DNA of 64,000 nucleotides from Variovorax paradoxus (GTDB taxonomy: Bacteria > Pseudomonadota > Gammaproteobacteria > Burkholderiales > Burkholderiaceae_C), in assembly GCA_016806145.1 (NCBI GenBank), contig CP063167.1:1980501-2044500 (forward strand), read 5' to 3'. This document shows positions 8,415 to 24,404 of the stretch, in pieces. Below the pieces are notes generated by a model. That model was not told where the DNA came from, made no database searches, and worked only from the letters and a program-made list of their open reading frames with translations. The translations under genes and the position numbers were made by a program. How positions within the stretch are numbered: the first letter of the stretch is position 1; every line of letters starts with the position of its first letter.

Positions 8415-8460
8415 AGCTGTCGGGCACTTCGATTTCGGAATCGCGTGCGAGTGGCCTTAA
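8404..8460 (+). pseudogene. 18-codon open frame overlapping the HTH gene; possible hipA remnant
   Basis: An ATG at 8404 overlaps the last codons of the HTH gene, the arrangement expected for a coupled hipA. It encodes only MLPEAVGHFDFGIACEWP before a stop, and the adjoining minus-strand VOC gene ends on the same bases. It is too short to identify, and the hipA interpretation rests on position alone. Confidence 0.2.
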
Positions 8461-8834
8461 AGCGTCTCCCCCGGATCGAAATCCAGCTCCACCTTCGCCC
8501 CGTTCGGATCGTGGCAGAACAGCTGCCAGGTCCCCGCGCCCGCCTGCTGCCGCAGTTCGTACTTCACGCCCGCGGCGTCGAAGCGCGCTTTCACCGTGCG
8601 CAGGTCCTGCGCCGTGAAGGCCATGTGGTCGATCACGCCGGTGCGCTGCGCGGGCACGGGGCGGCCGAAGTACAGGTGCAGCACGGCCTGCGGCCCGCTG
8701 CCGTAGAGCCAGGCCCCCGGAAAGCCGAGGTCGGGCCGGTGGCCCACGCGCAGGCCGAGCAGGCCGGTGTAGAAGTCCAGCGTCTGGCGCTCGTCTTCCG
8801 CGGTGACGGTGAAGTGGTTCATGCCGACGATCAC
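8457..8834 (-). CDS. VOC-superfamily (glyoxalase/extradiol-dioxygenase-like) protein
   Basis: This 125-residue single-domain protein belongs to the vicinal oxygen chelate superfamily, whose members bind a metal and act on glutathione adducts, diols or antibiotics. It starts with the typical strand MNHFTVTAEDERQTLDFYTGLLGLRVG and contains the second repeat IDHMAFTAQDLRTVKARFDAAGV and the ending DPNGAKVELDF. Metal ligands are probably the N-terminal His (in MNHFT), the His in IDHMAF and the Glu in VELDF. It is the last gene of the long minus-strand operon, 31 bases after the SRPBCC-reductase fusion. The substrate is unknown. Confidence 0.9.
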   Translation of the reverse strand: MIVGMNHFTVTAEDERQTLDFYTGLLGLRVGHRPDLGFPGAWLYGSGPQAVLHLYFGRPVPAQRTGVIDHMAFTAQDLRTVKARFDAAGVKYELRQQAGAGTWQLFCHDPNGAKVELDFDPGETL

Positions 8835-8865
8835 TGGCGTTCTCCTTGCATGGTGTTAACAGGCC

Positions 8866-10338
8866 CTAGGCCAGCAGAACCAATGCGCCGATGCTGGCGC
8901 GCGATTCGAGGCGTTCATGGGCGCGCGCCGCGGCATCGAGCGCGAAGCGTTCGATCGGCGGCTTGCGGATGGCGCCGCTGGCGAGCGCATCCCACAGGCG
9001 CTGCGCGCGCTCGGCCAGTTGCGCGGGCGTGGCGACGTAGTCGAACACCACGGGCCGCGAGAAGCTCAGCGACTTGGCGATCAGCAGGTCGGGCGGCAGC
9101 GCGGCCAGCGCGCCGCTGGCCTGGCCGAGGCTGATCCAGTGGCCGCGGCGCGCGAGCGCCGCATGGTTCTCGGCGCGCGCGGCCTCGCCGAGGCCGTCGA
9201 CCAGCACGTCGACGCCGCCGCAGGCGCGCTGCACCGCATCGGCGAAGCGGTAGTCGCGCGTGACGATCACGTGCTCGCAGCCATGGTCGCGCGCGACGCG
9301 CGCCTTCTCCTCGCTCGAGACGGTGCCCACCACCACCGCGCCGAGGCTGCGTGCCCAGGAACACAGCAGCAGGCCGACACCGCCGGCGGCGGCATGCACG
9401 AGGATGCGCGTGCCGCGCTGCACGCGGCCGAGGTCGCGCAGCAGGTAGTCGGCCGTGAGGCCCTTGAGCAGCAGCGCCGCGGCCTCGTCGTCCTCGACGG
9501 CCGCGGGCAGCCGCACCACCCAGTCCGCGGGCACCGAGCGCACGCTGCGGTAGGCGCCGGGCACGGGCCCGAGGTAGGCCACGCGGTCGCCGGGAAAGAG
9601 GCCGCTGACGCCGGGGCCGACATCGATCACGCTGCCGGCCGCCTCCATGCCGGGCACGCCGGGCGCGCCCTCCGACACCGGCAGCATCGACGGCATCCAG
9701 CCGCGGCGCAGGTAGACGTCGAGGAAGTTCACGCCGATCGCGCGCTGGCGGATGCGCACCTCGCCCTCGGCAGGCGCCGCCGCTTCGTCGTCGCGCGGCC
9801 GCAGGACCTCGGGGCCGCCATAGGCTTCGAGGCCCATGCTGCGCCGCGGCAGCGCGAGCGCGGCCGAAGCGGCGATGCCCGCGGATGACGTGGGTGCACC
9901 ACGCTCCAGGTAGCGCCGCAGGTTCGCGAACCCCGCCTCGTAGACGCCGCGCGCCACCGTGTCGCGCAGCTCGCGCTCGCGGCCCGGCGGCGTGGCGAAG
10001 GTCGATTCCCAATGCCAGAAGGTGCGGTTGCCGTCGGTCACGGGCTTCAGGGTGACGGTGGCCACGTAGCGCTGCAGCGGCAGTGTGGCCTCGACGATGC
10101 AGTAGGTGCTTTTGTTTTCGCTGTCCGACAGGCTCAGCAGCTGCTCGCGGATGCGGTTGCCGTCGCGCAGCGTGAAGCTGCGCACGCAGCCCACCTGGTC
10201 GCCGCGCTCGTCGCCCTCGATGCGGCTGGCCTCCACCACCTCGTGCCAGTCGGCATGGCTGTTGAAGTCGCGCAGCACCGCCCACACGCGCTCGATCGGC
10301 GCGTCGATGACGGTGGAGCGCACGACCCGCTGCAGCAT
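8866..10338 (-). CDS. SRPBCC domain fused to a zinc-independent quinone oxidoreductase (MDR)
   Basis: This protein of 490 residues joins two families. Residues 1-148 form an SRPBCC/START-like ligand-binding domain (polyketide cyclase group: STVIDAPIERVWAVLRDF, then VTLKPVTDGNRTFWHWES). Residues 165-490 form an NADPH:quinone reductase-like medium-chain dehydrogenase (GLEAYGGPEVLR, NFLDVYLRRG, VHAAAGGVGLLLCSWARSLGA). There is no stop codon between them. The reductase start resembles a normal N-terminus at an internal ATG (residue 168), so an extra internal start cannot be excluded. The ATG overlaps the stop of the upstream SRPBCC gene (TGATG), and that neighbour is a paralog of the N-terminal domain. 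The SRPBCC part may hand a hydrophobic substrate to the reductase. Confidence 0.88.
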   Translation of the reverse strand: MLQRVVRSTVIDAPIERVWAVLRDFNSHADWHEVVEASRIEGDERGDQVGCVRSFTLRDGNRIREQLLSLSDSENKSTYCIVEATLPLQRYVATVTLKPVTDGNRTFWHWESTFATPPGRERELRDTVARGVYEAGFANLRRYLERGAPTSSAGIAASAALALPRRSMGLEAYGGPEVLRPRDDEAAAPAEGEVRIRQRAIGVNFLDVYLRRGWMPSMLPVSEGAPGVPGMEAAGSVIDVGPGVSGLFPGDRVAYLGPVPGAYRSVRSVPADWVVRLPAAVEDDEAAALLLKGLTADYLLRDLGRVQRGTRILVHAAAGGVGLLLCSWARSLGAVVVGTVSSEEKARVARDHGCEHVIVTRDYRFADAVQRACGGVDVLVDGLGEAARAENHAALARRGHWISLGQASGALAALPPDLLIAKSLSFSRPVVFDYVATPAQLAERAQRLWDALASGAIRKPPIERFALDAAARAHERLESRASIGALVLLA

Positions 10339-10778
10339 CAGCGGCCTCCGAAGTGCCGCTTCAGCGCATCGAAGCCGCCCTGGAACACGCCCTCGCCGAT
10401 CGAGTCGGCCAGCTCGCGCTCGCGGTGTTCCTCGCAGTCGAACTCGGCGCTCCATTCGGCGAAGCAGCGCCCGCCGTCGGTCACCGGCGTGAGCTTGAGC
10501 GTCGCCGTGTAGTGGCTCACGCCCATCGGGCTCTCGAGGATCTCGTAGCTGCAGCTGTAGTCGTAGTCCGAGAGCGCGAGCAGGCGTTCGCGGATCATGC
10601 CGCCGTCACGCAGGTGGAAATGGCGGATGCAGCCCACGCGGTCGGCCGGCTGGTTGTTCTCGATCCGGCAGTCGGCGATCAGCGGATGCCACTGCGGCAG
10701 GCCGTTGAAGTCGCGCACGCGCGCCCACACGTTGTCGGCGCTCGCGTCGATCACGCTCGAGACGTAGACGTTCACCAT
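10338..10778 (-). CDS. SRPBCC-family (polyketide cyclase/START-like) protein
   Basis: This 146-residue stand-alone SRPBCC protein has a helix-grip fold that binds hydrophobic ligands. It begins VNVYVSSVIDASADNVWARVRDFNGLPQWHPL and keeps the VGCIRHFHLRDGGMIRERLLALSD strand series seen in the N-terminal domain of the next gene, so the two arose by duplication. It lies 3 bases after the flotillin gene and overlaps the next gene by one base. The function is unknown, with binding or cyclisation of a pathway intermediate the likely possibilities. Confidence 0.9.
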   Translation of the reverse strand: MVNVYVSSVIDASADNVWARVRDFNGLPQWHPLIADCRIENNQPADRVGCIRHFHLRDGGMIRERLLALSDYDYSCSYEILESPMGVSHYTATLKLTPVTDGGRCFAEWSAEFDCEEHRERELADSIGEGVFQGGFDALKRHFGGR

Positions 10779-10781
10779 GCC

Positions 10782-12470
10782 TTATTCCTTGGGCGTGCCG
10801 GCGCCCAGCGCGGCACGCGCGCCGCTGCTCTCGTTGACCAGCTTCTGGATGTCGCCGCCCTCGATGCCGATCTCGCGCAGCAGCTGGTCGACCAGCGGCG
10901 CCTGGGCCCGGAAGCGCAGCGCGGAATTGACCAGTCCGTCGGCGAAGTTGCCGCCACCCTCGGCATTGCGCGCGCCGCCCGACGAACCGCCGAAGCCGTC
11001 GACCTGCAGGATCTTGATGCCCTCGATGCGCTCCATCGGCCGCACCGACTCGCGGATGATGCCCTCGGCCTTCTCCACCAGCCGCATGCGCAGGGCGGAC
11101 ATGCGCGCCTCGGGCGTGAGCATGTTGTGCGCCTCGTTCATCCAGCGTGCGGCCTCGGCCTCGATCTCGGCGCGCACGCGCGTGGCATCGGCGCGGATCT
11201 TCTCGGCGTCGGCATCGGCCTCGGCCTGGGCACGCAGCGCGGCGCCGCGGTGCGCGCTCGCGTCATGCTCGGCCTGGGCCGCGGAGGTCAGCCGCAGCGC
11301 CTCGCGCTCGGCGATCAGCGCGGCCGCGATCAGCTCGATGGTCTTCTTGCGCTCGGCGCTCTCGACCTCGCGTGCCGTGAACACCTTCTCCTCGGCCGTC
11401 ACGGCCTGGGCGCGCGCGGCCTCGGCTTCGGCCTGGGCCTCGCTCTGCGCCTTGCTCTCGCGCGCCACGGCGATCGAGCGCTGCTGCTCGGCCAGCTCGA
11501 GCGAGGTGCGGCGCTCGAGCTCGGCGCTCTGGATCGCGCGCTCCTTGCCGATGCGCTCCTCCTCGATGGTCTGCTCCGAGCGGATGCGCGCGGCATCGAT
11601 GCTCTGGCGCGCCGCGATCTGCGCACTCTCGGCATGCTGCTCGCGCTGCGCACGCTCGATCGCCACCTCGGCGCGCTGGCGCGAACGCGCCATCTCGACC
11701 TCGCGCTGCTGCGTCAGCCGCGCATGCTCGCTCTCGCGATCGATCTCCAGCGACAGCTTCTCGGCCTCGAGGTTCTTGTTGCGGATCGCGATCAGCGTGT
11801 CCTGCTCGACGTCGTTGCGCTGCTTCTTGCGGCGCTCGATCTGCTCGGTCAGCCGCGTCAGGCCCTCGGCGTCGAAGGCATTGCTGGGGTTGAAGAACTC
11901 CATGCCGGTCTGGTCGAGCTGCGTGAGCGAGGCGGCCTCGAGCTCCAGGCCGTTGTTGGTCAGGTCCTCGGCCACCGCCTCGCGCACCCGCTTGACGTAG
12001 GCGCCGCGCTTCTCGTGCAGCTCCTCCATCGTCATCTCGGCCGCGGCGGTGCGCAGCGCGTCGACGAACTTGCCCTCGACCAGTTCCTTGAGCTGCTCGG
12101 GCTCCATGGTGCGCAGGCCCAGCGTCTGCGCGGCCACCGCCACCGACTCGGCCCTGGCGGCCACGCGCACGTAGAACTCGGCGATCACGTCCACGCGCAT
12201 GCGGTCCTTGGTGATCAGTGCCTTGTCGCGCCCGCGGCTGACCTCCAGCCGCAGCGTGTTCATGTTGACCGGGATCACGTCGTGCACGATCGGCAGCACG
12301 AAGGCGCCGCCGTCGAGCACCACCTTCTGCCCGCCGAGGCCGGTGCGCACGAAGGCGCGTTCCTTGGAGCTGCGCAGGTAGAGCCAGTGCAGCAGCCAGA
12401 CGACGATCGCGACCGCGATCGCCACCACCAGCAGCCCGAGGATGAAACTTCCGAATTGAGAACCTGACAT
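10782..12470 (-). CDS. Flotillin-family membrane scaffold protein
   Basis: This 562-residue flotillin/YqiK-type protein has one N-terminal transmembrane helix (residues about 9-31), an SPFH/PHB domain (AFVRTGLGGQKVVLDGGAFV onward to about residue 190), and a long Ala/Glu-rich coiled coil from about 230 to 470 (many AEAEAARAQ and ERER repeats). The C-terminus is flexible and Gly-rich. Flotillins assemble at lipid microdomains and stabilise membrane protein complexes. The gene sits within a catabolic and transport operon, 16 bases after the TIM-barrel gene and 3 bases before an SRPBCC gene. It may organise the transporter or handle hydrophobic substrates, but that is inference from position. 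Confidence 0.93.
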   Translation of the reverse strand: MSGSQFGSFILGLLVVAIAVAIVVWLLHWLYLRSSKERAFVRTGLGGQKVVLDGGAFVLPIVHDVIPVNMNTLRLEVSRGRDKALITKDRMRVDVIAEFYVRVAARAESVAVAAQTLGLRTMEPEQLKELVEGKFVDALRTAAAEMTMEELHEKRGAYVKRVREAVAEDLTNNGLELEAASLTQLDQTGMEFFNPSNAFDAEGLTRLTEQIERRKKQRNDVEQDTLIAIRNKNLEAEKLSLEIDRESEHARLTQQREVEMARSRQRAEVAIERAQREQHAESAQIAARQSIDAARIRSEQTIEEERIGKERAIQSAELERRTSLELAEQQRSIAVARESKAQSEAQAEAEAARAQAVTAEEKVFTAREVESAERKKTIELIAAALIAEREALRLTSAAQAEHDASAHRGAALRAQAEADADAEKIRADATRVRAEIEAEAARWMNEAHNMLTPEARMSALRMRLVEKAEGIIRESVRPMERIEGIKILQVDGFGGSSGGARNAEGGGNFADGLVNSALRFRAQAPLVDQLLREIGIEGGDIQKLVNESSGARAALGAGTPKE

Positions 12471-12486
12471 GGATGTCGTCTCCTGG

Positions 12487-13317
12487 TTATCGCGTGATCT
12501 GAACGAAGCGGCGCGTGGTCTCGGTCAGCGCCACCTCCGCGGGCAGGCGCTCCATCGAGCTGGCGCCATAGAAGCCGTCGCAGGCGGGGCAGCGCGCGAG
12601 CACGTACTGCGCATCCTCCGGCGTGGCGATGGGGCCGCCGTGAAAGAGCACGATCACCCCCGGGTTCACTTCCTGCGCGGCCGCGGCCCAGCGGTTGATC
12701 AGCGGCACGCAGTCGTCGAGCTTGAGCGCCGTCTCGGCGCCGATCGCGCCGCCGGTGGTCAGTCCCAGGTGGCAGACCACGATGTCGGCACCCGCGCCGG
12801 CCATGGCGCGCGCATCGGCCTCGCTGAAGACATAGGGCGTGGTCAGCAGGTCGAGGGCACGCGCGCGGGCCACGAGCTCGACCTCGAGGCCGTAGCCCAT
12901 GCCGGTCTCCTCGAGGTTGGCGCGGAAGGTGCCGTCGATCAGGCCCACGGTCGGAAAGTTCTGGATGCCCGAGAAGCCCAGCGCGATCAGCCGGTGCAGG
13001 AACTCGTCGGGGATCATGAACGGGTCGGTGCCGTTCACGCCCGCGAGCACCGGCGTGTGCTTGACCACCGGCAGCACCTCGCGCGCCATCTCGCAGACGA
13101 TCTCGTTGGCATTGCCGTAGGCCATCAGCCCCGCGAGCGAGCCGCGCCCGGCCATGCGGTAGCGGCCCGAGTTGTAGATCACGATCAGGTCGATGCCGCC
13201 GGCTTCCTCGCACTTGGCCGACAGGCCGGTGCCGGCGCCGCCGCCGATCAGCGGCCGGCCCGAGGCGATCTTGGCGCGGAAGCGCTCCAGCAGCGCGGTG
13301 CGTGAGATGCGGGTCAT
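12487..13317 (-). CDS. Phosphoenolpyruvate-hydrolase-like TIM-barrel protein (Tm-1 C-terminal-domain family)
   Basis: This protein of 276 residues belongs to the PEP_hydrolase-like TIM-barrel family, the same family as the C-terminal half of the tomato antiviral protein Tm-1. Recognisable parts are [44 protein letters not shown] and [18 protein letters not shown]. The start at 13317 is preceded by GAGGAGGAG at a suitable distance, so a longer N-terminus is unlikely. It follows the LivF-Tm-1 fusion gene by 31 bases. In plants the UPF0261 part and this TIM barrel are one protein, whereas here they are separate neighbouring genes. The reaction catalysed is not established. Confidence 0.9.
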
Positions 13318-13348
13318 GGTGGTAGGCTCCTCCTCGGTTGTTCTTGGC

Positions 13349-15601
13349 TCATGCCCGGCGCGCGCCGGGCGTGGCCCGCGAGACCTCGCGCCAGGCCTCG
13401 ACCAGCGCATCGGCGAAGGCTTCGTCGTTGATGTGCAGCGGCAGCCGCTTGAGCTGGCGGTTCGGCCCGGGCCGGAAGCCGGCCTCGAGCGCCGCGAACA
13501 GCGCGCGGTCGGCCTCGGGGTCGTGGAAGGGCTGGCCCGGCCGGTCGATGGCCGAGACGCCGCCTTCGGGGATGAGGAAGCGCACCGGTCCGCGCATCGC
13601 GTTGAGCTTGGCGGCGATGAATTCGCCGATGGCGCGGCACTCGTCGGCCGTGGTGCGCATCAAGGTCACCGTCGTGTTGTGGCGGTAGAGATTGCGCGCC
13701 CGGAAGCGCTCGGGCACGGTCTCCCAGGCGCCGAAGTTCACAATGTCGAGCGCGCCGCACGAGCCCACGTAGGGCAGGGCGTGGCGCGCGAACACGTCGA
13801 GCCGGTCGGGCCCGGCCGACAGCACGCCGCCCGCGATCTCGTCGGCCACCTCGGTGGTCGACACGTCGATCGCGCCCGCGAGCAGGCCCGAGTCCGCGAG
13901 CTTCTCCATCGACTGGCCGCCCACGCCGGTGGCGTGGAACACCAGGCAGTCCCAGTCGTCCTCGAGCCGCCGCGTCACGGCCTGCACGCAGGGCGTGGTC
14001 ACGCCGAACATGGTGAGGCCGATGGCGGGCCGGGTCACGGCCGAGACCGAGGCCGGATGCGCCACCATGCCGGCCAGTGCATTGGCCGCGTTCGACAGCA
14101 CGCTCTCGCTGATGCGGTTGATGCCCTGCACGTCGGTGACCGAATACATCATGCAGATGTCGCTCGGGCCCACGTAGGGCCGCGTGTCGCCGCTGGCCAT
14201 GGTCGAGACCATGAGCTTGGGCACGCCGATCGGCAGCGCGCGCATGCCCTGCGTGGCCATCGAGGTGCCGCCCGAGCCGCCGGCCGAGATCAGGCCGCCG
14301 AGGTCGCGCCGCGTGCGCAGGAAGGCTTCGAAGGCCAGGCCCATGGCGGCGGTGGCGCTGCCGCGGTCGCCGCTGAACACCGCCGACTCGCCCTTGGGAT
14401 GGTGGCGCGCCACCTCGCGCGGATGCACGCTCGCGGTCGAGGGCTTGCCCGAGGTCGAGAGGTCGACCGTGACCACGCGCAGGCCCAGCCGCTCGATGCA
14501 CTGGCGCAGGAAGAACAGCTCGCGGCTCTTGGTGTCGAAGGTGCCGGCCACGTAGGCCGCGCGCACGCTGCTCGCGGCCACCGGGAAGTCGAACACCTGG
14601 CCCGAGGCCGCCGCGGGCTGTGCCGGTTCGGGCGCGGGCTCGGGCGGTGCGATCAGGCGCGGGATGTCGGCCGCGGGCGCGGCCGTGCCGCCGGCATTCC
14701 AGCGCGTGAAGCCGCGCACGCTGGCCGGCGCGAGGTCATCGAGCGAGGGTGCGCCGTCGCCATGGGCGCGGCGCACGGTGTAGACGCGCGGCGCGTTGTC
14801 GCGGCCGTCGTCCTCGCCCATGCGCGGTGCCGGCTGCTCCGCCTCGGCCTCGTCGCCATGGCCGCCCGAGCGCACGCCCAAAAGCTTCTCCTGCAGCTCG
14901 CGGTCGGCCGCGAGTTCGGCCGCCGGCATCTCGCGCGCGATGCGGCCGTTGACCATCAGCCCGATGCGGTCGGCCACCGAGATCGCCACGCCGAGGTTCT
15001 GCTCGATCAGCAGCACCGCGATGCTGCCCTCGGCCGCGAGGTCGCGCAGCGCCTGCGCCACCTGGTCGACGATGACCGGCGCCAGGCCCTCGGTCGGCTC
15101 GTCCATCACCAGCAGCTTGGGGTTCAGCAGCAGTGCGCGGCCGATCGCGAGCATCTGCTGCTCGCCGCCCGAGAGCTGGGCACCGCCATTGCCGCGCCGC
15201 TCGGCCAGCCGCGGGAACATCGCATAGACGCGGTCGACCTCGCGCCGGCGGCTCGCCACCAGCCGCAGCGTCTCGTCGACCGAGAGCGAGGGCCACACGC
15301 GCCGGCCCTGCGGCACGTAGGCGATGCCGCGGCGCGTGATCTCGTTGGGCGCCAGGCCCAGGATCCCCTCACCCCCGAAGCGCACGCTGCCGCGCGCCGG
15401 CACCAGGCCGGTGAGCGCGTTGCACAGCGTGGTCTTGCCCATGCCGTTGCGTCCGACGATGCCGAGCACGCCGCGCTCGAGCGACAGGCTCACGCCCTGC
15501 AGCGCATGGGCGCGGCCGTAGTAGACGTCGAGGCCCTCGACCACCAGCGCGGTGGATCGGCCAGCCGCCGTGTCGCGATCGCCGCCGCCGAACCAGGCCA
15601 T
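13349..15601 (-). CDS. LivF-type ABC ATPase fused to a Tm-1-like UPF0261 domain
   Basis: This 750-residue protein is made of two unrelated parts. Residues 1-245 are a complete LivF-like ABC ATPase: Walker [10 protein letters not shown] (50-58), signature LSGGE (143-147), Walker B LLVMDEPT (163-170), then [17 protein letters not shown]. Residues 245-345 are a linker that ends rich in Pro and Ala. Residues 346-750 are a UPF0261/Tm-1-like ATP-binding domain ([42 protein letters not shown]-like [15 protein letters not shown], and [17 protein letters not shown]). The ATG overlaps the LivG stop as TGATG. The layout suggests that uptake and a Tm-1-type activity are coupled, or that the fusion keeps them together at the membrane. 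Confidence 0.92.
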
Positions 15602-16422
15602 CAGTGCTTGCTCCCCATGTAGATCGCCTGCACCTGCGCATCGCCCTCGATCTCGGCCGGGCTGCCGGTGCGCAGCACGCGGCCGTTGTGCATCACCGTC
15701 ACGCGGTCGACCACGCGCAGCGCGATGTCCAGGTCGTGCTCGATCAGCACGAAGCTCATGTGCGCGGGCAGCGAGGTCAGCAGCGCCACCAGCTCGCGCC
15801 GCTCGGCCGGCGAGAGGCCGGCCGCGGGCTCGTCGAACAGGATCAGCCGCGGCGCGCCGGCCAGCGCCATGCCGATCTCGAGCTGGCGCTGCTGGCCGTG
15901 CGCGAGGTTGGCCACCTTCTCGTCGGCGATGTGCGACAGGCGCGCGCGCTCGAGCAGGTCCTCGGTCGCGCGCGTGCTCGCATGGCCGGCGCCGGGCCGG
16001 CGGAAGCTGAAGCGGCCGCTGGCCACGCCGCGCACCGCGAGGAACAGGTTGTCGCGCACCGAGAGGTCGCGAAACAGCAGCGAGGACTGGTAGGTGCGCC
16101 GCAGGCCCTTGCGGATGCGGTCCTGCGGCGGCAGGTCGGTGATGTCCTCGCCGAAGAAATGGATGCGTCCCGCGGTCGGCGGGAAGTCGCCCGTGATGGC
16201 GTTGAACAGCGTGGTCTTGCCGGCGCCGTTCGATCCGAGGATGGCGTACTTCTGGCCCGCAGTGACCGCGAGCGAGACGCCGTCGACCGCGCGCAGCGCA
16301 CCGAAGGCGCGCGTCACGCCGTCCAGGCGCAGCGCGTCGCCCGACAGGAGCTGGGTGCTGCCGCCGCGCGCGGGTTGGGGTGCGCGCGAAGCGGGCGGTC
16401 GCAGCGTGGTGATGGTGGCCAT
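15601..16422 (-). CDS. Branched-chain-type ABC transporter ATP-binding protein (LivG-like)
   Basis: This 273-residue protein is one of the two ATPases of a Liv/HAAT-type importer. It has Walker [10 protein letters not shown], the LivG-style signature [15 protein letters not shown], Walker B LILFDEP and the switch histidine in [10 protein letters not shown]. It has about 35 extra N-terminal residues (ending [14 protein letters not shown]) compared with a minimal LivG. The stop overlaps the start of the LivF-Tm-1 fusion, so the two ATPases are translationally coupled. It sits downstream of the binding-protein gene, separated by a 156-base spacer that holds a repeat element. Confidence 0.94.
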
Positions 16423-16451
16423 CTCAGTTCCGTGTGGGGCGATGTCTTGCG

Positions 16452-16558
16452 CCTTCCCCCTCTGGGGGAAGGTCGGGATGGGGGCGGTGCCCGACGAACG
16501 CCGCGCGAACGCGCGGGCCGTCGTGCCCCCACCCCGACCCTCCCCCAGCGGGGGAGGG
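16452..16558. repeat. REP-like intergenic palindromic element
   Basis: This 107-base element lies between the Liv binding-protein and LivG genes. It contains a left hairpin (CCTTCCCCC, 16452-16460, pairing with GGGGGAAGG, 16464-16472), a right hairpin (CCCTCCCCC, 16538-16546, with GGGGGAGGG, 16550-16558), and a longer-range pairing of 16472-16485 with 16525-16538 that has one mismatch. It looks like a dispersed extragenic palindrome and may stabilise or partly terminate the operon transcript here. I see one copy in the window. Confidence 0.75.
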
Positions 16559-16578
16559 AGACAGAGCGCACGCGTGGA

Positions 16579-17841
16579 TCACGTGCGGCAGTCCGGCACG
16601 TCGCGCGTGCCCATCCCCATCTTCTTGAACTCGGCCTCCGACAGCCCCAGCGTCTGCGAGATGTTCGGCACCGACTTCACGACCTTGTTGTAGAACGAGC
16701 CGTCGGGCGCCTTCGTCACCTCGGTGATGTAGGTCGTGCCCACGCCGTTGCGGTTGGCATCGATCTTCACGTCGCCGGCCGGGCCCTTGAAGTTGGTCTT
16801 CTGCAGCGCCTCGCGGTAGGCCTTCTGGTTGTTCGACAGGTCGCCCTTGACCGCGTCGAGCGCATCGAGCGTGGCCTTGGTGTTGATGTAGTACAGGTAG
16901 GCGAACAGCGACGGGCTCGGGAAGCCGTCCTTGAAGCTGGCCTTGTAGTCGGCCACGAACTTCTTCCACTCGGGCGTGTCGATCGAGTCCGCCATCGGGC
17001 CCGCCGAGGCCGTGCCCAGCAGCGATTCGCGGCGCTTGCCCTTGAAGTTCAGCACCGTCTGGTCGACCGTGATCGAGCCGCCGATCATCGGCTTGTCGCC
17101 GCCGGCCTGCTCGTACTGGGTCAGGAAGTTCACCGCATCGGAGCCGCCGAGCACCACCACCAGCGCATCGACGTTCTTCGGGATCTTCGCGATCACCGAG
17201 GCGTAGTCCTTGGTGCCCAGCGGCACCCAGGCCTTGTCGACCACCTTGCCGCCCTTGGCGCAGTAGCTGGCCATGAAGCCCTGCACCTGCGAGTAGGGGA
17301 AGCCGTAGTCCTCGGCGATCAGGAAGGTGCGCTTGTAGCCCTTGGACAGCGCATGCTCGCCCAGGCCCACCATCCACTGCGCGCCCTCGGTGTTGAAGCG
17401 GTAGAAGTTGGGCGCCGGGTCCTGCAGCGTCGCGGCCTGCGCGCCGGCCGAGCCGTTGATGAAGGTGACGTTGGGCTGCGTCTTCGCGTAGTTCTTGACC
17501 GCGATGCCCTCGTCGCCCGACAGCGGGCCGATCATGATCTGCACCTTGTCCTGCTCGACCGCCTTGCGCGTCGAGTTCACGGCCTTGTCGGGCGTGGCGT
17601 CCGACGAGACCTTCACGAACTCGATCTTCTTGCCGCCGGCCATGCCCTTCTTCTCCTTCAGCGCGAGGTCGGCGCCGCGCATGCCGTCCTGGCCCGGCGC
17701 CGCGAACGGTCCCTCGAGCGAGGCCAGCAGGCCGATCTTGAGGGTTTCCTGCGCCTGCGCGAGGCCCGCGGCCCCGGCCATCGCGAACAACGCCGCGGCG
17801 GCGACGATGCCGCGTCCGAACACCTTCTCGACTCTCTTCAT
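16579..17841 (-). CDS. Branched-chain-type ABC transporter substrate-binding protein (LivK-like)
   Basis: This 420-residue periplasmic receptor belongs to the type I (Leu/Ile/Val-binding) fold. A signal peptide is present (KRVEKVFGRGIVAAAALFAM, cut near GLAQA). The mature part starts QETLKIGLLASLEGPFAAPGQDG and contains DGMRGADLALKEK, then NVTFINGSAGAQAATLQDPAPNFYRF. The ATG at 17841 is chosen for its AGAAGGAG ribosome site, seven bases upstream, rather than a longer N-terminus. It is the receptor for the LivHMG and LivF-fusion transporter. Such receptors often bind aromatic acids or amides as well as amino acids. The ligand is unknown. Confidence 0.94.
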   Translation of the reverse strand: MKRVEKVFGRGIVAAAALFAMAGAAGLAQAQETLKIGLLASLEGPFAAPGQDGMRGADLALKEKKGMAGGKKIEFVKVSSDATPDKAVNSTRKAVEQDKVQIMIGPLSGDEGIAVKNYAKTQPNVTFINGSAGAQAATLQDPAPNFYRFNTEGAQWMVGLGEHALSKGYKRTFLIAEDYGFPYSQVQGFMASYCAKGGKVVDKAWVPLGTKDYASVIAKIPKNVDALVVVLGGSDAVNFLTQYEQAGGDKPMIGGSITVDQTVLNFKGKRRESLLGTASAGPMADSIDTPEWKKFVADYKASFKDGFPSPSLFAYLYYINTKATLDALDAVKGDLSNNQKAYREALQKTNFKGPAGDVKIDANRNGVGTTYITEVTKAPDGSFYNKVVKSVPNISQTLGLSEAEFKKMGMGTRDVPDCRT

Positions 17842-17857
17842 GTCTCGCTCCTTCTGG

Positions 17858-19012
17858 TCACTGGTGAATGCGGCCTGAGCCACGGGTGGGGAAAGGTGCG
17901 CCCAGGCGCGTGCGCAATCGATGCCACAGGCCCAGCAGTCCGTCGGGGGAAAAGAGGACGATCGCGAGGAAGACCCCGCCGATCACGAGATTGAAGCGTT
18001 CGCGGTCGACCAGGTCGATGGCGAAGTTCTGCAGCAGCACGAAGACGATCGCGCCGATGAAGGCACCGATGGGGTGCTTCATGCCGCCGAGCACGGCGAT
18101 GATGAGGATGTTGATCATCGCGCCGATGCCGAGCGTGCCGGGCGAGATGCGGCCGTTGTACCAGACCAGCAGCACGCCGCCGACCGCGGCCAGGAAGCCC
18201 GAGACCGCATAGGCCGCGACCCGGTGCGCGGTGACGTCGAAGCCCAGCGCCTGCATGCGGCGCGGGTTGTCGCGGATGCCCTGCAGCGCCACGCCGAAGG
18301 GTGCGCGGATCAGGTGCTTGATGAAGAAGTAGCCCGCCACCGAGCAGCCCAGCGTGAGCAGGTAGAAGGGCACGGGCTCGCGCAGGTCGAGCCCGAACAC
18401 AGTGGGCGCGGCCAGCTTGCTGAAGCCCTGGAAGCCGTTGAACAGCGTGTAGTTCTGCTGCGCGAGGTAGAAGAAGGCCACGCCCACGGCCAGCGTGATC
18501 ATGATGGTGTAGATGCCCTCGGTGCGCACCGAGAGCCAGCCCACCGCGGCCGAGAACAGCGTGGCCAGCGCCAGCGCGACGATCACCGCGAGCCACCAGG
18601 GCCAGCCCAGGCTGATCGCCGTGTTGCTGCTGCTGCCCACGATCGCGACCACGTAGGCCGCGAAGCCCGCCACCGTCATCTGCGCGAGCGAGACCATGCC
18701 GCCATAGCCGCCGAGGAAGGTCAGCGACAGCGCGATCAGGCCGAGCGCGAGCGACTGGGCGCCGATCTGGAAGGTGAAGAAGGGCGAGGCGACGAAGGGA
18801 TAGACCAGCACCAGCAGCGCGACCAGCACATGGCGCCAGCGCACGGGGCGCAGCAGCCTGCCCAGCCAGCGCGGCAGCTCGCCATGGGCCGGCGGCGGTT
18901 CGGCGGGTTGCGATGGCGATGCGACCGCGCGCGGCAACGCGGTGACGCGCGCTTCCTGCGCGGGCATCGACCCGCCCGACTTCATGGCGCGGCGCCACTG
19001 CGCGGCGCTCAC
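17858..19012 (-). CDS. Branched-chain-type ABC transporter permease (LivM-like)
   Basis: This 384-residue membrane protein is the LivM-type permease, with many hydrophobic helices from about residue 60 on and the family motif GGYGGMVSLAQMTVAGF followed by the ATP-binding-protein contact segment FGVALQGIRDNPRRMQALGF. An N-terminal extension of about 50 hydrophilic residues precedes the first helix. The start codon is GTG at 19012, supported by GGAGGT six bases upstream. An ATG at 18985 would be the alternative. A small hairpin (19030-19045, arms TCGCAC/GTGCGA) lies in the 61-base gap after LivH. Confidence 0.93.
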   Translation of the reverse strand: MSAAQWRRAMKSGGSMPAQEARVTALPRAVASPSQPAEPPPAHGELPRWLGRLLRPVRWRHVLVALLVLVYPFVASPFFTFQIGAQSLALGLIALSLTFLGGYGGMVSLAQMTVAGFAAYVVAIVGSSSNTAISLGWPWWLAVIVALALATLFSAAVGWLSVRTEGIYTIMITLAVGVAFFYLAQQNYTLFNGFQGFSKLAAPTVFGLDLREPVPFYLLTLGCSVAGYFFIKHLIRAPFGVALQGIRDNPRRMQALGFDVTAHRVAAYAVSGFLAAVGGVLLVWYNGRISPGTLGIGAMINILIIAVLGGMKHPIGAFIGAIVFVLLQNFAIDLVDRERFNLVIGGVFLAIVLFSPDGLLGLWHRLRTRLGAPFPTRGSGRIHQ

Positions 19013-19073
19013 AGGAGTACCTCCGTGCTTCGCACTGCGGTGCGAGCTTGCTTGGGGCGGCCCGGCGCGGCGC

Positions 19074-20024
19074 TCATGTCGCCTTCCCCATCAGCCCGCG
19101 CGGCTTGAACGCCAGCGCGACCACCATGATCACGAAGGTGAAGACCACGCTGTAGGTCGGCGCATAGGCCAGCCCGAACTGCTCGGCCAGCCCGATCAGC
19201 AGCGCGCCGATGGCGGCGCCGACCACGCTGCCCATGCCGCCGACGATCACCACCACCAGCGAGGCCAGCAGGTAGCGCGTGTCCTCGCCCGGCGAGATCG
19301 ACAGGGCAGTGCCGCCGACCACGCCGGCCAGGCCCGCGAGGCCGGCGCCGATCGCGAAGGTCAGCGCGAACACCAGCTGCACGTTGACGCCCGAGGCGGC
19401 CAGCATGCCGCGGTCGTCGACGCCGGCACGGATCATCATGCCGATGCGCGTGCGCGCCAGCAGCAGCCACAGGCCCACGCCGATCAGCACCGAGGCCAGC
19501 AGCACCACCAGCCGGTAGGTCGGGAACTTCTCGACCAGCGGCAGCGTGGTCGAGCCGTAGATCCACGAGGGCGGATCGAAGGTGTAGATCTCGGCGCCCC
19601 AGATCCACAGCATCAGGTCGGCGAACACGATCGACAGGCCGATGGTCACCAGCGTCTGGCGCAGGTCCTGGCCCTGCATGTGGCGAAACACCAGCAGCTG
19701 CATCAATAGGCCCAGCACCGCGGCCGCGAGGAAGCCCGCGATCACCGCGAGCACCCAGGAGCCGGTGTGCTCGCCGACGAACCAGCCCACGTAGGCGCCG
19801 AACAGGTAGAGCGAGCCGTGCGCGAGGTTCACGTTGCGCATCAGACCGAACACCAGCGTGAAGCCGCTGGCCACGAGGAAGTAGAGCGAGGCCAGCGTGA
19901 GCCCGTTGAGCAGCGTCTTGAAGAACAGCGAGGCGTTGTCGGCCACGGCCCAGACCGCGAACACCGCGATCGGCACGCCGAGCACCAGCCACAGGGCCCA
20001 GCGCGTGAGGGCGGCGCGCGTCAT
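19074..20024 (-). CDS. Branched-chain-type ABC transporter permease (LivH-like)
   Basis: This 316-residue integral membrane protein is the LivH-type permease. Typical segments are LVASGFTLVFGLMRNVNLAHGSLYLFGAYVGW, RTRIGMMIRAGVDDRGMLAASGVNV and LLASLVVVIVGGMGSVVGAAIGALLIG. The ATG at 20024 overlaps the stop of the amidohydrolase as ATGA, so transporter and hydrolase expression are coupled. With LivM, LivG, LivK and the LivF fusion it makes a complete importer. Confidence 0.94.
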   Translation of the reverse strand: MTRAALTRWALWLVLGVPIAVFAVWAVADNASLFFKTLLNGLTLASLYFLVASGFTLVFGLMRNVNLAHGSLYLFGAYVGWFVGEHTGSWVLAVIAGFLAAAVLGLLMQLLVFRHMQGQDLRQTLVTIGLSIVFADLMLWIWGAEIYTFDPPSWIYGSTTLPLVEKFPTYRLVVLLASVLIGVGLWLLLARTRIGMMIRAGVDDRGMLAASGVNVQLVFALTFAIGAGLAGLAGVVGGTALSISPGEDTRYLLASLVVVIVGGMGSVVGAAIGALLIGLAEQFGLAYAPTYSVVFTFVIMVVALAFKPRGLMGKAT

Positions 20025-21316
20025 GCCGCGCGCTCCCAGCCCCGGTCCCAGCCGCGCTCGGACGCGATCGCCGGTGCCTTGGCGAACTCGCCGTCCTTCA
20101 TCACGGCCAGGATGCGCTTCGCATCGCGCAGGATCGAGAGGTTGGCCAGCGGGTCGCCGTCGACCAGCATCAGGTCGGCGAGGTAGCCCTCCTTGACGAG
20201 GCCGAGCTCGTCGGGCCGCATCATGATCTGGCCGCCATAGAGCGTGGTCGAGCGGATCGCCTCCATCGGCGTGAAGCCCAGGTACTTGACGAAGAACTCG
20301 AGGTCGCGCGCGTTCTGCGTGTGCGGCGTGAAGGCGAAGCCGTAGTCGCCGCCGGGCAGCACGCGGATGCCGCGCTTGTGCATCTTCGCGAGCGAGACGC
20401 AGGCCGCGTCCCATTCGATCTGGTAGCCCATGTCGGCCGCCATCTGGTAGGTCACGCCATAGGGCTCGGCCTCGTGCAGCATGGCGTAGAGGATGGCGAT
20501 GCCGGGCGCGACGAAGACGCGGTCCTTCGCGGCCTCGAGCATGTCGAGCGCCTCCTCGTCGACGAAGCTCGCGTGGTAGATCAGGTCGATGCCATGGCGC
20601 AGCGCCTGCTTCACGCTCTCCGACGAGCGCGCATGCGCCACGCCGCGCTTGCCGCGGATCTTGACCTCGCGCATCGCCGCGGCCACCTCCTCGTCGAGCA
20701 TCCAGGTGGTTTCCGAGGGCGACTGCGGCGTGAAGTTGTCGCCCGAGAGGTTGAGCTTGATCGAGTCGACGCCGTACTTGAGGAACAGGCGCACCGCCTT
20801 GCGCATCTCGTCGGCGCCCGAGATGTTCACGCCGAAGCTGAACTCGGGAAAGGGCAGGTGCGGCAGCGTCTCGTCGCCCAGGCCGCCGAGCACCGTGATC
20901 TCCTGGCTCGCCGCGAGGTAGCGCGGCCCGGGGATCTGGCCCGAATTGATCGCGTTGCGGATCACCACGTCGAGCCGCGGCTTGGCGCAGGCCGCGCCCA
21001 CGCAGGAGGTGAAGCCGGCCTCGAGGTAGCGCTTCGCGACCTTGGCGCACCACAGCACGTGCTCCTCGAGCGGCATGGTCTGGATCGCCGCGAGCGTGGC
21101 GGCGTCGTTCCACGAGAAGTGCGTGTGGGCCTCGCACATGCCGGGCATGAGCGTGGCGCCCGCGCCGTCGATCACGGTGGCGCCGCCGGGCGCGATCGGC
21201 GCGGTGCTGCGGCCCACCTGCCGGATGCGGTTGCCGCGCACCAGCACGCTGCCGCTGTAGGGGTTCTGCCCCGTGCCGTCGAGGATGCGCACGTTGGTGA
21301 AGACGACGTCGGCCAT
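20021..21316 (-). CDS. Amidohydrolase-family enzyme (imidazolonepropionase-like), copy 1
   Basis: This 431-residue metal-dependent amidohydrolase belongs to the COG1228 group. Metal-binding and catalytic residues can be seen: the HxH motif in CEAHTHFSW, SIKLNLSGD, a histidine in GVAHARSS, another in IYHASF, and the aspartate in LPGGDYGFAFTPH. It starts MADVVFTNVRILDGTGQNP, typical for the family's N-terminal beta domain. It is a clear paralog of the gene just upstream. Members hydrolyse cyclic amides, carbamates, organophosphates or prolidase substrates, and which applies here is open. It ends overlapping the LivH start. Confidence 0.93.
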   Translation of the reverse strand: MADVVFTNVRILDGTGQNPYSGSVLVRGNRIRQVGRSTAPIAPGGATVIDGAGATLMPGMCEAHTHFSWNDAATLAAIQTMPLEEHVLWCAKVAKRYLEAGFTSCVGAACAKPRLDVVIRNAINSGQIPGPRYLAASQEITVLGGLGDETLPHLPFPEFSFGVNISGADEMRKAVRLFLKYGVDSIKLNLSGDNFTPQSPSETTWMLDEEVAAAMREVKIRGKRGVAHARSSESVKQALRHGIDLIYHASFVDEEALDMLEAAKDRVFVAPGIAILYAMLHEAEPYGVTYQMAADMGYQIEWDAACVSLAKMHKRGIRVLPGGDYGFAFTPHTQNARDLEFFVKYLGFTPMEAIRSTTLYGGQIMMRPDELGLVKEGYLADLMLVDGDPLANLSILRDAKRILAVMKDGEFAKAPAIASERGWDRGWERAA

Positions 21317-21344
21317 GCGGTGCTCCGGTCGGGGTTCGGAAGGC

Positions 21345-22652
21345 CTAGGCGGCCCAGCGGGTGGGAGAGGCGACGCGCAGGCCCTGCGCCTGGCGCAGCG
21401 GCGGGGCGCGATGGAACTCGCCGTCCTTCATGACGGCCAGGATGCGCGACTTGTCCTGCAGCACCGTGATGTCGGCCAGCGGATCGCCGTCGACGAGCAG
21501 GATGTCGGCCAGGTAGCCCTCGCGGATGTAGCCCAGCACCTTGCCCATGCGCATCATCGGGCCGCCCCAGGCGGTGGCCGACAGCAGGGCCTCCATCGGG
21601 CTCATGCCCACGTACTTCACGAAGTACTCGAGGTCCTTGGCATTGGTGCCGTGCGGCGTCCAGGCGAAGCCGTAGTCGCCGCCGGGCAGGATGCGGATGC
21701 CGCGCTTGCGCATCGCCCGCATGCTCTCCACCGCGGCATCGAGCTCGCGGTGGTAGCCCATCTTCGTGGTGACTTCCTTCGTCAGGCCCCACTGGCTCGC
21801 GTGGTGGCAGGTGTTGATCAGCCATGCGAGACCGGGCGCGATGAAGTGCTCCATCTTGTGCGCCTCGAGCAGGTCGAGCGCCTCGCTGTCGGTGAAGCTC
21901 GCGTGGTAGATCACCTCGATGCCGTGCTTCACGCACTGCTTGATCGACCAGGTGGAGCGCGCATGCGCGGCCACGCGCTTGCCCCAGGCCTTGGCCTCCT
22001 CCACGCAGACGCGGATCTCCTCCTCGGTGAACTGGCTCATCTCGCTGGACATGCCGGTGATCGACTCGCCCGAGAGGTTGATCTTGAGCGAGTCGACGCC
22101 GTACTTGGCGAACATGCGCACGCAGCGGCGCATCTCCTCGGCACCGCTGACCACCGCGCCGAAGGCGAACTCGGGCTGCGGCAGGTGCGGCTGCGTGGTG
22201 TCGCCGAGCCCGCCGGGCACGGTGATCTCCTGGCTCGCGGCCAGGTAGCGCGGGCCGACGATGGTGCCGTCGTTGATCGCGTTGCGGATCACCACGTCGA
22301 GCCGCGGCTTGGCGGTGGCGGCACCCACGCAGCTGGTCCAGCCCATGTCGAGGTAGCGCTTCGCGACCTCGGCGCACCACAGGATGTGCTCCTCGGGCGG
22401 CATGCGCTGGATCGCGTCGAGGCTGGGCTGGTCGTTCCACGAGAAATGCGTGTGGGCCTCGACCATGCCGGGCATCAGGAAGGCGCCCGCGCCGTCGATG
22501 ACCTGGGCGCCATGCACGGGCGCGGAGCGCGCGCCGTGCGAAGTCTTCACGACGCGCGCGATGCGGTTGCCCTGCACCAGCACGTCGCCGGTGAAGGGCG
22601 CCTCGCCGCCACCGTCGAAGATGCGGACGTTGGTGAACAGCACGTCGGCCAC
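21345..22652 (-). CDS. Amidohydrolase-family enzyme (imidazolonepropionase-like), copy 2
   Basis: This 435-residue enzyme is homologous along its whole length to the neighbouring amidohydrolase: VADVLFTNVRIFDGGGEAP, VEAHTHFSWNDQ, SLKINLSGE, VAAHARSTW, IYHASFTD and LPGGDYGFAWTPH match block for block. I chose the GTG start at 22652. It follows GAGGAG, sits two bases after the stop of the alpha/beta hydrolase, and aligns exactly with the ATG of the paralog. The duplication suggests related substrates or a hetero-oligomer. The role in ring-opening or amide hydrolysis is inferred from family only. Confidence 0.92.
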   Translation of the reverse strand: MADVLFTNVRIFDGGGEAPFTGDVLVQGNRIARVVKTSHGARSAPVHGAQVIDGAGAFLMPGMVEAHTHFSWNDQPSLDAIQRMPPEEHILWCAEVAKRYLDMGWTSCVGAATAKPRLDVVIRNAINDGTIVGPRYLAASQEITVPGGLGDTTQPHLPQPEFAFGAVVSGAEEMRRCVRMFAKYGVDSLKINLSGESITGMSSEMSQFTEEEIRVCVEEAKAWGKRVAAHARSTWSIKQCVKHGIEVIYHASFTDSEALDLLEAHKMEHFIAPGLAWLINTCHHASQWGLTKEVTTKMGYHRELDAAVESMRAMRKRGIRILPGGDYGFAWTPHGTNAKDLEYFVKYVGMSPMEALLSATAWGGPMMRMGKVLGYIREGYLADILLVDGDPLADITVLQDKSRILAVMKDGEFHRAPPLRQAQGLRVASPTRWAA

Positions 22653-22654
22653 GG

Positions 22655-23452
22655 TCAGCTCCTCGCTTGCGCCGCCAGGAATTCGCGCAACTCGCGCTGG
22701 CACTCGTCGGGGCGCTCGACGGGTGTCCAATGGCCGCACTTCGGCAGCACCACCACGCGCTTGCTGGCGGCACGGTGCAGCCGGTCGGCCATGGCGCGCA
22801 CGGCCTGCGGCGGCGCCACGCCGTCCTCGTCGCCGGTCACCAGCAGCACCGCGGCCTCGATGTTCTCCACCGCCGCGGGCTGCGCGCCGGCCAGGGCCTC
22901 GCAGCTGCGCGCATAGGCCTCGCCGTCCTGGCGCATCAGGCTCTCGCGCACGAAGGCCACCGCCACCGGCAGCCGCTGGCGCGTGTCGGCCGAGATCGCG
23001 CCCTGCAGCAGCGCCTGCGTGATCTCGTGCATGCCCGCCGCGCCGCCGCGCGCCTTGTCGGCGCGGGCCTTCATCGCGGTGCGCGCCGCGTCGGGCGGCG
23101 CGATCAGCGGGCCGAACAGCGCGAGGCTCGCCACGCACTTCGGATGCGCCGCGGCGATGTGCTGGCAGACGATGGTGCCCATCGAATGGCCGACCCAGTG
23201 CGCGCGCTGGATGCCCAGGCGTTCGCAGACCGACAGCACGGTCGCTACATAGCGCTCGATCGTGAGCGGCCCTTCGGCGCGCTGCGAGCGGCCGCTGCCG
23301 GGCAGGTCGATGCGCACCACGCGATGGCGCGCCAGCGCGGGCATCAGCGGCGTGTAGGTGTTCGAGCTGCCGCCCAGGCCATGCACGCAGACGACCACCG
23401 GGCCTTCGCCCTCGTCCTCCACCGCGATGCGGTCGATGAGCTGGAAGCTCAT
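22655..23452 (-). CDS. Alpha/beta-fold hydrolase
   Basis: This 265-residue serine hydrolase has the oxyanion-hole segment VCVHGLGGSS, the nucleophile elbow WVGHSMGTIVCQ, an acid in LLVTGDEDGV and the catalytic histidine in KCGHWTPVERP. Size and motifs fit the enol-lactonase or meta-cleavage-product hydrolase group (3-oxoadipate enol-lactonase, MhpC-like), though lipase-type activity is possible. The ATG overlaps the stop of the FAH-family gene (ATGA) and the gene ends two bases before the amidohydrolase start. Confidence 0.92.
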   Translation of the reverse strand: MSFQLIDRIAVEDEGEGPVVVCVHGLGGSSNTYTPLMPALARHRVVRIDLPGSGRSQRAEGPLTIERYVATVLSVCERLGIQRAHWVGHSMGTIVCQHIAAAHPKCVASLALFGPLIAPPDAARTAMKARADKARGGAAGMHEITQALLQGAISADTRQRLPVAVAFVRESLMRQDGEAYARSCEALAGAQPAAVENIEAAVLLVTGDEDGVAPPQAVRAMADRLHRAASKRVVVLPKCGHWTPVERPDECQRELREFLAAQARS

Positions 23453-24324
23453 GCGAGGGCCTCGAAGCGGTTCTCGATGACGCCGATGCCGTCGATCTCG
23501 ATGCGCACCGTGTCGCCCCGGCCCAGCCATTGCGGCGGGTCCAGGCCCATGCCCACGCCCGAGGGCGTGCCGGTGGCGATCACGTCGCCCGGATGCAGCG
23601 TGATGCCGCGCGAGCAGGTCTCGATCAGCGTCGGGATGTCGAAGATCATGTCGCGCGTCAGGCCGTCCTGGCGCAGCGCGCCGTTGACCCAGCCGCGCAC
23701 GCGCGTGGCGCGGCCGTCCATCTCGTCGGCGGTCACGATCCACGGGCCCATCGGGCAGAAGGTGTCGAAGCTCTTGCCGAGGTCCCACTGCTGGTGGCGC
23801 ATCTGCACGTCGCGCGCCGTGACGTCGTTGACGATGGTGTAGCCGAACACGTGCTCCATCGCCTGCGAGCGCGGGATGTCGCGCCCGCCGCGGCCGATGA
23901 TCACCGCGAGTTCGGATTCGTAGTCGATCTGCACCGATACCGAGGACCGCGGCAGCCGCACCGGATCGTGCGGACCGATCACGCATTCGCCGAGCTTGCC
24001 GAACACGATCGGCCACGGATCGCTCTCGGGCATGCTGCTGCGGAACACCGAGCTCGCGAGTTCGGCCGCATGCGCGCGGTAGTTGCGCCCGACGCAGAAC
24101 AGGCCGCGCAGCGGGCGCGGCAGCGGGGCGCGCAGGGCGATCACCTCGACCGGCAGCCGCGTGCCCGAGGGCTGCGGCAGCGGCTCGTTGCGTGCCAGCG
24201 CCTCGATCAGCGGCAGCACGCCGCGCGAGGCGTCGCCCACCGCCAATGGCGTGGCTTCCCGGCCGTCGGCCGAGATCGTGCCCGCATGGTTGCGGCCACC
24301 CCAACTCCAGCTTGCGAAGCGCAT
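23449..24324 (-). CDS. Fumarylacetoacetate hydrolase-family protein (first gene of the 14-gene operon)
   Basis: This 291-residue FAH-superfamily enzyme cleaves C-C bonds in, or decarboxylates or isomerises, 2-hydroxymuconate-like diketo acids. Metal-site residues are in the family blocks LFCVGRNYRAHAAEL, DYESELAVIIGRGG, GYTIVNDVTARDVQ, KSFDTFCPMGPW and TGTPSGVGMG. The start at 24324 follows GGAG at nine bases; an ATG at 24339 lacks a ribosome site. It is the promoter-proximal gene and faces the TetR-hydrolase fusion gene. An FAH enzyme and an alpha/beta hydrolase together are typical of the lower part of aromatic meta-cleavage pathways. Confidence 0.92.
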   Translation of the reverse strand: MRFASWSWGGRNHAGTISADGREATPLAVGDASRGVLPLIEALARNEPLPQPSGTRLPVEVIALRAPLPRPLRGLFCVGRNYRAHAAELASSVFRSSMPESDPWPIVFGKLGECVIGPHDPVRLPRSSVSVQIDYESELAVIIGRGGRDIPRSQAMEHVFGYTIVNDVTARDVQMRHQQWDLGKSFDTFCPMGPWIVTADEMDGRATRVRGWVNGALRQDGLTRDMIFDIPTLIETCSRGITLHPGDVIATGTPSGVGMGLDPPQWLGRGDTVRIEIDGIGVIENRFEALA

Positions 24325-24404
24325 CGACTTTGTCTCCATATGGCCCCGAGGTCGTCGCGCTGTGCGCCGATCGCCTCGGTGGCTCCGGAAGTCATCTAGG
24401 GATT

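Follow-up and report, generated by a model that had tools for sequence, protein, structure and literature searches.

The 64,000-nucleotide stretch of Variovorax paradoxus DNA analysed in this study (hereafter the window; assembly GCA_016806145.1, contig CP063167.1, forward-strand positions 1,980,501 to 2,044,500) carries an operon in which one ATPase of a Liv-type ATP-binding cassette (ABC) importer is fused to a UPF0261 domain. The source genome has 9.44 Mb in three contigs. The 14 minus-strand genes at 8457-24324 were recovered as open frames and assigned by domain-profile search to the families named in a first-pass annotation of the window. From 24324 downward, they encode an FAH-family hydrolase (23449..24324; PF01557), an alpha/beta hydrolase termed ABH (22655..23452; PF00561, with the nearest NCBIfam models of the PcaD type and far below their cut-offs), the amidohydrolases AH1 (21345..22643) and AH2 (20021..21316; both PF01979, 62% identical to each other), the permeases LivH (19074..20024, its ATG start overlapping AH2 by 4 bases) and LivM (17858..19012; both PF02653), a LivK-type solute-binding protein (16579..17841; PF13458, with relatives in the PDB) and the LivG ATPase (15601..16422; PF00005). 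There follow the LivF ATPase joined to a Tm-1-type UPF0261 domain in a single frame of 750 aa (13349..15601; ABC_tran, UPF0261 and UPF0261_C), a PEP_hydrolase of 276 aa (12487..13317; PF09370, a TIM barrel also called TBST), a flotillin of 562 aa (10782..12470; SPFH and Flot domains, PF01145 and PF15975), the stand-alone SRPBCC1 (10338..10778; PF10604; 45% identical to SRPBCC2), SRPBCC2 joined to an NADPH:quinone reductase-like domain in a single frame of 490 aa (8866..10338; PF10604 with ADH_N/ADH_zinc_N) and a VOC (glyoxalase-like) protein (8457..8834; PF00903), the least conserved member. The distances from stop to next start, from FAH to VOC, are -4, 11, 28, -4, 61, 16, 156, -1, 31, 16, 3, -1 and 31 bases, where the choice of GTG start makes the ABH-AH1 value 2 or 11; the close spacing first described (here -4 to 61) and its one large gap were thus both found. 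The regulated unit extends past 24324 to an operator at 24405..24424 and a divergent TetR gene at 24504..26045 on the plus strand.

The 750-aa frame holds both a LivF ATPase and a UPF0261 protein, each of them complete. The first-pass annotation had listed these as separate domains, as it had SRPBCC2 and the quinone reductase; the families were correct, but both pairs are in-frame fusion genes. Because the homologues of LivF-UPF0261 (at least 120) show 98-100% coverage and 79-99% identity among the matches listed, the frame is not an error; the named relatives are mostly Variovorax, and the SRPBCC2-quinone reductase frame was found in 24 loci. For comparison across organisms, 80 loci (L016-L095) were used. 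They surround the 80 best matches among at least 594 relatives of PEP_hydrolase in named genomes and are therefore biased to close relatives. A flotillin gene was present in 30/30 fused loci and absent from 44/45 unfused loci (Fisher 4e-20), a comparison covering the 75 loci with at least 2 kb after PEP_hydrolase (L022, L024, L028, L073 and L076 fell below this). The single unfused locus with a flotillin is L087, where the contig ends within the UPF0261 gene. None of the 6 loci with LivH or LivM matches and an unfused UPF0261 has a flotillin, and the operon's flotillin is the sole Flot-domain match in its own genome. In a tree of 75 UPF0261 domains (LG+C20 with posterior mean site frequencies, PMSF), the 34 fused rows form one clade (96/83), and the fusion is a single change in 98% of bootstrap trees. 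The alphaproteobacterium Reyranella and a Rokubacterium are placed among the Burkholderiales in this tree, which points to transfer between lineages.

One reading of the fusion is that it is a co-expression or stoichiometry device in the same catabolic operon, with UPF0261 and PEP_hydrolase cytoplasmic and uncoupled from transport. The linker is consistent with this, as it is variable in length and sequence between conserved domain ends (30 of the 33 fused loci aligned; L020, L024 and L027 were excluded), and so are four of those 6 Liv-bearing loci, in which LivF and UPF0261 are separate adjoining genes (L066, L080, L091 and L095) and Bradyrhizobium, where the two lie ~0.9 kb apart. However, the fused rows come from several classes and the collected members all stay fused, and the flotillin accompanies every testable one of them. 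We regard this explanation as somewhat unlikely.

The UPF0261 domain is above its family cut-offs (208 bits to PF06792, 300.4 bits to PF23189) and scores 598.9 bits to NF002673 (cut-off 520). Its AlphaFold model (pLDDT, the predicted local distance difference test, 93.8) returned in Foldseek the plant protein Tm-1 (3WRW/X/Y) and 9MPY, a PDB entry released on 2025-09-24 for Saro_1862, a UPF0261 domain protein of Novosphingobium aromaticivorans with acetovanillone bound. The operon's domain is 33% identical to Saro_1862, and both have the motifs DTK, GGS, VST-ASG and HNPQ-T-RT. The first step of acetovanillone catabolism in N. aromaticivorans is reportedly carried out by a kinase, MarK (PMC13101465). 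One member of the UPF0261 family thus seems to act as a kinase on an aromatic compound of plant origin, which for the domain studied here gives a lead towards aromatic ketones or comparable ring compounds. The genome's second UPF0261 gene (L112, C2:298000-313000) belongs to a different NCBIfam branch, NF002676, and is surrounded by two class-III aminotransferase matches, a HAD hydrolase, an SDR and an amidase. The NF002676 protein of Agrobacterium vitis also adjoins a HAD hydrolase and an aminotransferase (2/2 examined). Judged from gene neighbourhood, such a HAD hydrolase might suit a kinase with its phosphatase, which would support kinase chemistry in the family. Sets of the L112 type are possibly an undescribed kinase-phosphatase-transaminase pathway. 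The literature on UPF0261 and PF09370 in the one open-access collection searched gave no function. PMC8508112, PMC6867892, PMC12911418 and PMC13406360 name family members or Acv genes and offer no mechanism, and PMC2364660 lists a UPF0261 gene among candidates of a Brucella infection screen, again with no mechanism.

The PEP_hydrolase scores 426.2 bits to PF09370 (cut-off 33.8) and is 66% identical to PDB 2P10. Its model is a TrpA/IGPS/TIM-like barrel and so has the fold of the phosphate-binding TIM barrels (TrpA/IGPS/PdxS). An isocitrate-lyase/PEP-mutase type was rejected: besides 2P10, the matches listed (two sets of 50, in which absence excludes nothing) are TIM, TrpA, IGPS, PdxS/Snz, ThiE and one designed barrel. 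No activity of PF09370 in hydrolysis of phosphoenolpyruvate (PEP) or phosphonopyruvate was found in the same literature collection. In phosphate-binding TIM barrels, the phosphate is held by GG and GxS loops after strands 7 and 8; candidates for such loops here are G227, G228 and P229, and G248, G251 and S253, which are kept in enzymes and sensors alike. The word sensor is used because PEP_hydrolase also occurs as the N-terminal domain of sigma54 activators (L066, L080 and L100), which raises the alternative that neither UPF0261 nor PEP_hydrolase is an enzyme and that both regulate or sense transport. However, 47 residues, including H183, H226, Q119 and E37, are kept in stand-alone copies and lost in 4 sensor-type domains, a retention that would be expected of an enzyme, and a purely regulatory or sensory role is very improbable.

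The 179-base intergenic stretch between FAH and TetR holds the operator TTTGAGACTTGCGTCTCAAA (no strand; 8-base arms, 4-base spacer), and the exact form TGAGACN4GTCTCA has 1 copy in the 9.44 Mb. A TetR homologue adjoins the operon or a UPF0261-PEP_hydrolase set in 22 loci: the window, L104-L108, L026, L042 and 14 loci of the two-gene pair type (L036, L037, L038, L041, L043, L046, L047, L049, L054, L055, L064, L070, L093 and L098). L029 was left out of this count, its TetR match being ~6 kb downstream. The operator is exact in 16/22, has one mismatch in 4 (L026, L043, L055, L098) and two mismatches in 2 (L038, L041); L032 and L033 have an exact operator at the locus edge, and no TetR lies within the stretch covered. 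The TetR of L098 was taken from the annotation of its record, and the operator overlaps its annotated start; the TetR proteins of the other pair-type loci share 37-43% identity with the operon's. In L043 (Pragia fontium), TetR and PEP_hydrolase are present with no UPF0261 match between them, perhaps a broken or diverged gene. One regulator-operator pair thus seems to govern both the two-gene form, mostly in enterobacteria, and the large form. TetR probably represses the operon. A search of the open-access collection for the operator gave nothing relevant by title. In the window, TetR and an alpha/beta hydrolase (BD-FAE/Abhydrolase_3), which we take to be kynurenine-formamidase-like, form one frame of 513 aa. 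A stop precedes the hydrolase in 5/5 same-genus relatives, and the frame is either a regulator-enzyme fusion or a sequence error.

Control by a TetR protein would also suit detoxification or chemical defence, in which a poison of plant, fungal or insect origin is captured, disarmed by phosphorylation and hydrolysed. The pair-type loci with the operator include Gilliamella, Orbaceae, Erwinia (two mismatches), Pectobacterium and others, which have insect or plant hosts. In Photorhabdus, plu1012-1010 is described as a 'PrK012399-domain' gene followed by a TIM-br_sig_trns gene (PMC2422844), and we read 'PrK012399' as PRK02399, that is, UPF0261. Exposure to insect homogenate raised the activity of the plu1012-1010 promoter 10.6-fold; the promoters of two further genes with this domain, plu0801 and plu1017, rose 2.0- and 6.6-fold. 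However, a dedicated importer with a binding protein and several further hydrolases and reductases suit feeding better, and we consider defence unlikely as the main purpose.

The 156-base gap (16423..16578, minus strand) holds an imperfect palindromic repeat with an RNA fold z of -6.8, as first noticed, but it is no special feature, because it has 45 BLAST matches in its own genome (partly the same places on both strands) and is one copy of an ordinary genome-wide repeat family; it was therefore ruled out as an operon-specific element. The repeat is ~120 bases long with some tens of copies, and the listed matches lie on contig 1 except for the copy in this gap. A scan of 8300-24700 for sigma-70-like promoters found no site; since none was found even at the operon front, the scan is silent on internal promoters. 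Terminator-like sites in the same span (7, compared with 4.6 +/- 2.4 in shuffles) are within chance. The neighbouring hydrolase gene ABH2 (26190-27212) was rejected as a member, having no match in 5 same-genus loci, a weak argument as these loci reach 0.9-2.4 kb past the hydrolase.

The order FAH-ABH-AH-LivHMKGF-UPF0261-PEP_hydrolase-flotillin-SRPBCC-SRPBCC/quinone reductase recurs in the Burkholderiales. Complete or partial forms are found in Fodinicurvata, Mesorhizobium, Pseudohoeflea, Reyranella (where the contig begins at LivH), Hwanghaeella, Pelagibius and a Rokubacterium; Hwanghaeella and Pelagibius both have the hydrolases at the opposite end of the operon. An Olavius 'Delta 3' symbiont has a form without hydrolase matches. 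The recurring core across Beta- and Alphaproteobacteria, the Rokubacterium and the 'Delta 3' symbiont is LivHMKGF, UPF0261, PEP_hydrolase, flotillin and SRPBCC. In a first set of 31 relatives, PEP_hydrolase was found in the genome itself and in 5/18 same-genus genomes, and all five of these, opened with their upstream side, have the whole set with TetR and the hydrolase across the promoter. VOC is in operon position in 5/5 of these and in 7/80 of the larger collection, which has 2 more weak matches on the other strand. In L106, FAH is split in two by a short gap, which may reflect a disrupted gene or an inserted element. LivF-UPF0261 of nearly full length was found in 30/101 same-genus genomes including the source (24/87 good ones), and at family level 21/299 genomes including the source have a match, 20 over most of the fusion and one over UPF0261 only. 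The operon is therefore accessory and patchy. This conservation across loci gives good support to the earlier proposal of one uptake and degradation unit with a membrane-organising protein, and to its expectation that the gene order would be conserved in relatives.

An amide-containing compound, one of the substrate types named in the first-pass annotation, is not supported as what defines the chemistry of this unit, as the amidohydrolases are outer and exchangeable. Five alphaproteobacterial loci (L056, L063, L071, L082 and L089), which group together (99/93) within the fused clade, retain Liv-UPF0261-PEP_hydrolase-flotillin-SRPBCC-SRPBCC with no FAH, AH or ABH matches, and carbon monoxide (CO)-dehydrogenase-like molybdenum hydroxylase genes (assigned via sequence clusters with one representative of each scanned) come after the core instead. 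This suggests that the core does something general and that the hydrolases are adaptors. Just three of the unfused loci (L066, L080 and L095) have AH matches, and these lie on the other strand. An amide-, lactam- or hydantoin-type substrate degraded under the lead of the two amidohydrolases is therefore improbable, even though the structure matches of AH1 (arginine carboxypeptidase, Xaa-Pro dipeptidase and ochratoxinase) favour it and the alpha/beta hydrolase across the promoter is a second amidase-type candidate. The same AH1 matches allow the speculation that the imported form is an amino-acid conjugate of an aromatic compound. The importer itself also varies: LivHMK of L017, L020 and L106 share 63-69% identity with their counterparts in the window, compared with 82-87% for LivG, LivF and UPF0261, and in L018, L104, L105, L107 and L108 LivH and LivK are 89-95% and LivM 76-79% identical. 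From these identities, the LivH-LivM-LivK block looks to exist in two versions beside constant ATPases, as if the specificity part were swapped like a cassette. The nearest solved solute-binding proteins gave no substrate lead for LivK.

Taken together, the reading we favour, at a little under an even chance, is a TetR-repressed catabolic operon in which import is coupled to phosphorylation of a ring compound. Gene order, the fusion and its single clade, flotillin co-occurrence, operator conservation and the barrel fold of the model were read from sequence; kinase activity in this operon, substrate class, repression by TetR, channelling and the role of each enzyme are inferred. In this model, TetR would repress the operon, and LivHMKGF would import an aromatic ketone or comparable phenolic or enolic ring compound, which the UPF0261 domain on LivF would phosphorylate with ATP as it enters, so that it is trapped. 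The separate PEP_hydrolase barrel would cleave or rearrange the phosphorylated compound, SRPBCC proteins would hold hydrophobic intermediates, the flotillin would gather the complex at the membrane, and FAH, the alpha/beta hydrolase, the amidohydrolases, the quinone reductase and VOC would process the products. A bolder version, which we hold to be unlikely, is ABC group translocation in a flotillin-organised patch, in which a small-molecule kinase on the ATPase subunit would phosphorylate the ring compound on its exit from the permease. This would be a counterpart of the phosphotransferase system (PTS), with Tm-1 (UPF0261 and TBST) as a two-step kinase/lyase for ring compounds.

Several observations weigh against the coupled reading. 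By profile score, the operon's UPF0261 is closer to Tm-1 (466 bits) than to 9MPY (287 bits), and the kinase function would therefore be carried over from another UPF0261 branch; moreover, the identity of Saro_1862 with MarK is deduced from species, ligand and year. The fused rows are one clade, and the fusion-flotillin statistic therefore reflects one evolutionary event kept in the collected descendants and not 30. A fusion can also serve co-expression alone. With one mismatch, the operator occurs at 2 places in the genome, compared with 4 for a backwards control, and therefore only the exact site stands out. No Pfam match to a biotin-dependent carboxylase or a phosphatase was found among the 14 genes, and the acetovanillone pathway's carboxylase is thus absent. 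Finally, UPF0261-PEP_hydrolase pairs of Rhizobium, Terrarubrum and Qingshengfaniella adjoin sugar ABC genes, Gfo/Idh/MocA and cupins, and the L077 set adjoins an FGGY kinase and xylose-isomerase-like barrels; the partners of the smaller sets (sulfatase, sugar ABC, FGGY kinase, O-methyltransferase and others) gave no common chemistry. The sugar-type neighbours speak against an aromatic-only role, which would mean a broader range of substrates, covering enols and ketones at large, or a different role in the branches with such neighbours.

If the coupled reading is correct, the ATPase of this ABC importer would contain a kinase, and import may thus be physically linked to phosphorylation. To our knowledge, uptake with phosphorylation is known from the PTS and not from ABC importers, and no ABC importer with vectorial phosphorylation was found in the open-access collection. 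The Tm-1 family, to which a plant virus-resistance gene belongs, would also gain a chemical function, as would PF09370, so far a hydrolase by name. Because the operator is conserved and its exact site is single, the inducer should be findable, and any compound that releases TetR would be a candidate substrate in the Variovorax genus and in enterobacteria. The fusion, TetR with its operator, the acetovanillone lead for UPF0261 and the barrel or sensor role of PEP_hydrolase all go beyond the first-pass annotation.

The operon resembles several known systems in part. With MarK/Saro_1862 of acetovanillone catabolism, it shares the UPF0261 fold, whereas here there is an ABC ATPase fusion, a PEP_hydrolase partner and no carboxylase, and Tm-1 scores nearer. 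The first step would be like that of the Hpe (Rhodococcus GD02) and Acv (Sphingobium SYK-6) pathways, an ATP-dependent phosphorylation of a phenolic ketone, but the two-component kinase HpeHI, biotin-dependent carboxylase and phosphatase described in PMC9618137 are not in the operon. That paper gives a phosphorylation-maintained uptake gradient as one possible reason why HpeHI acts first on a hydrophobic substrate, and by analogy an importer-tied kinase would be a direct form of this idea. The plant proteins Tm-1 and Tm-1L are the closest solved relatives and have the same two partner domains, UPF0261 and TBST (PMC5028733); however, plants fuse these to each other, whereas here UPF0261 is on LivF and TBST is separate, and no antiviral role is implied. 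The flotillin has the SPFH and Flot domains of bacterial flotillins (FloT/YqiK), but it is retained with one importer operon and scores 48.9 bits to the FloT model (cut-off 700). Lastly, the solute-binding protein, two permeases and two ATPases of Liv/HAAT-type ABC importers are all found here, with the difference that this LivF bears an additional 400-aa domain.

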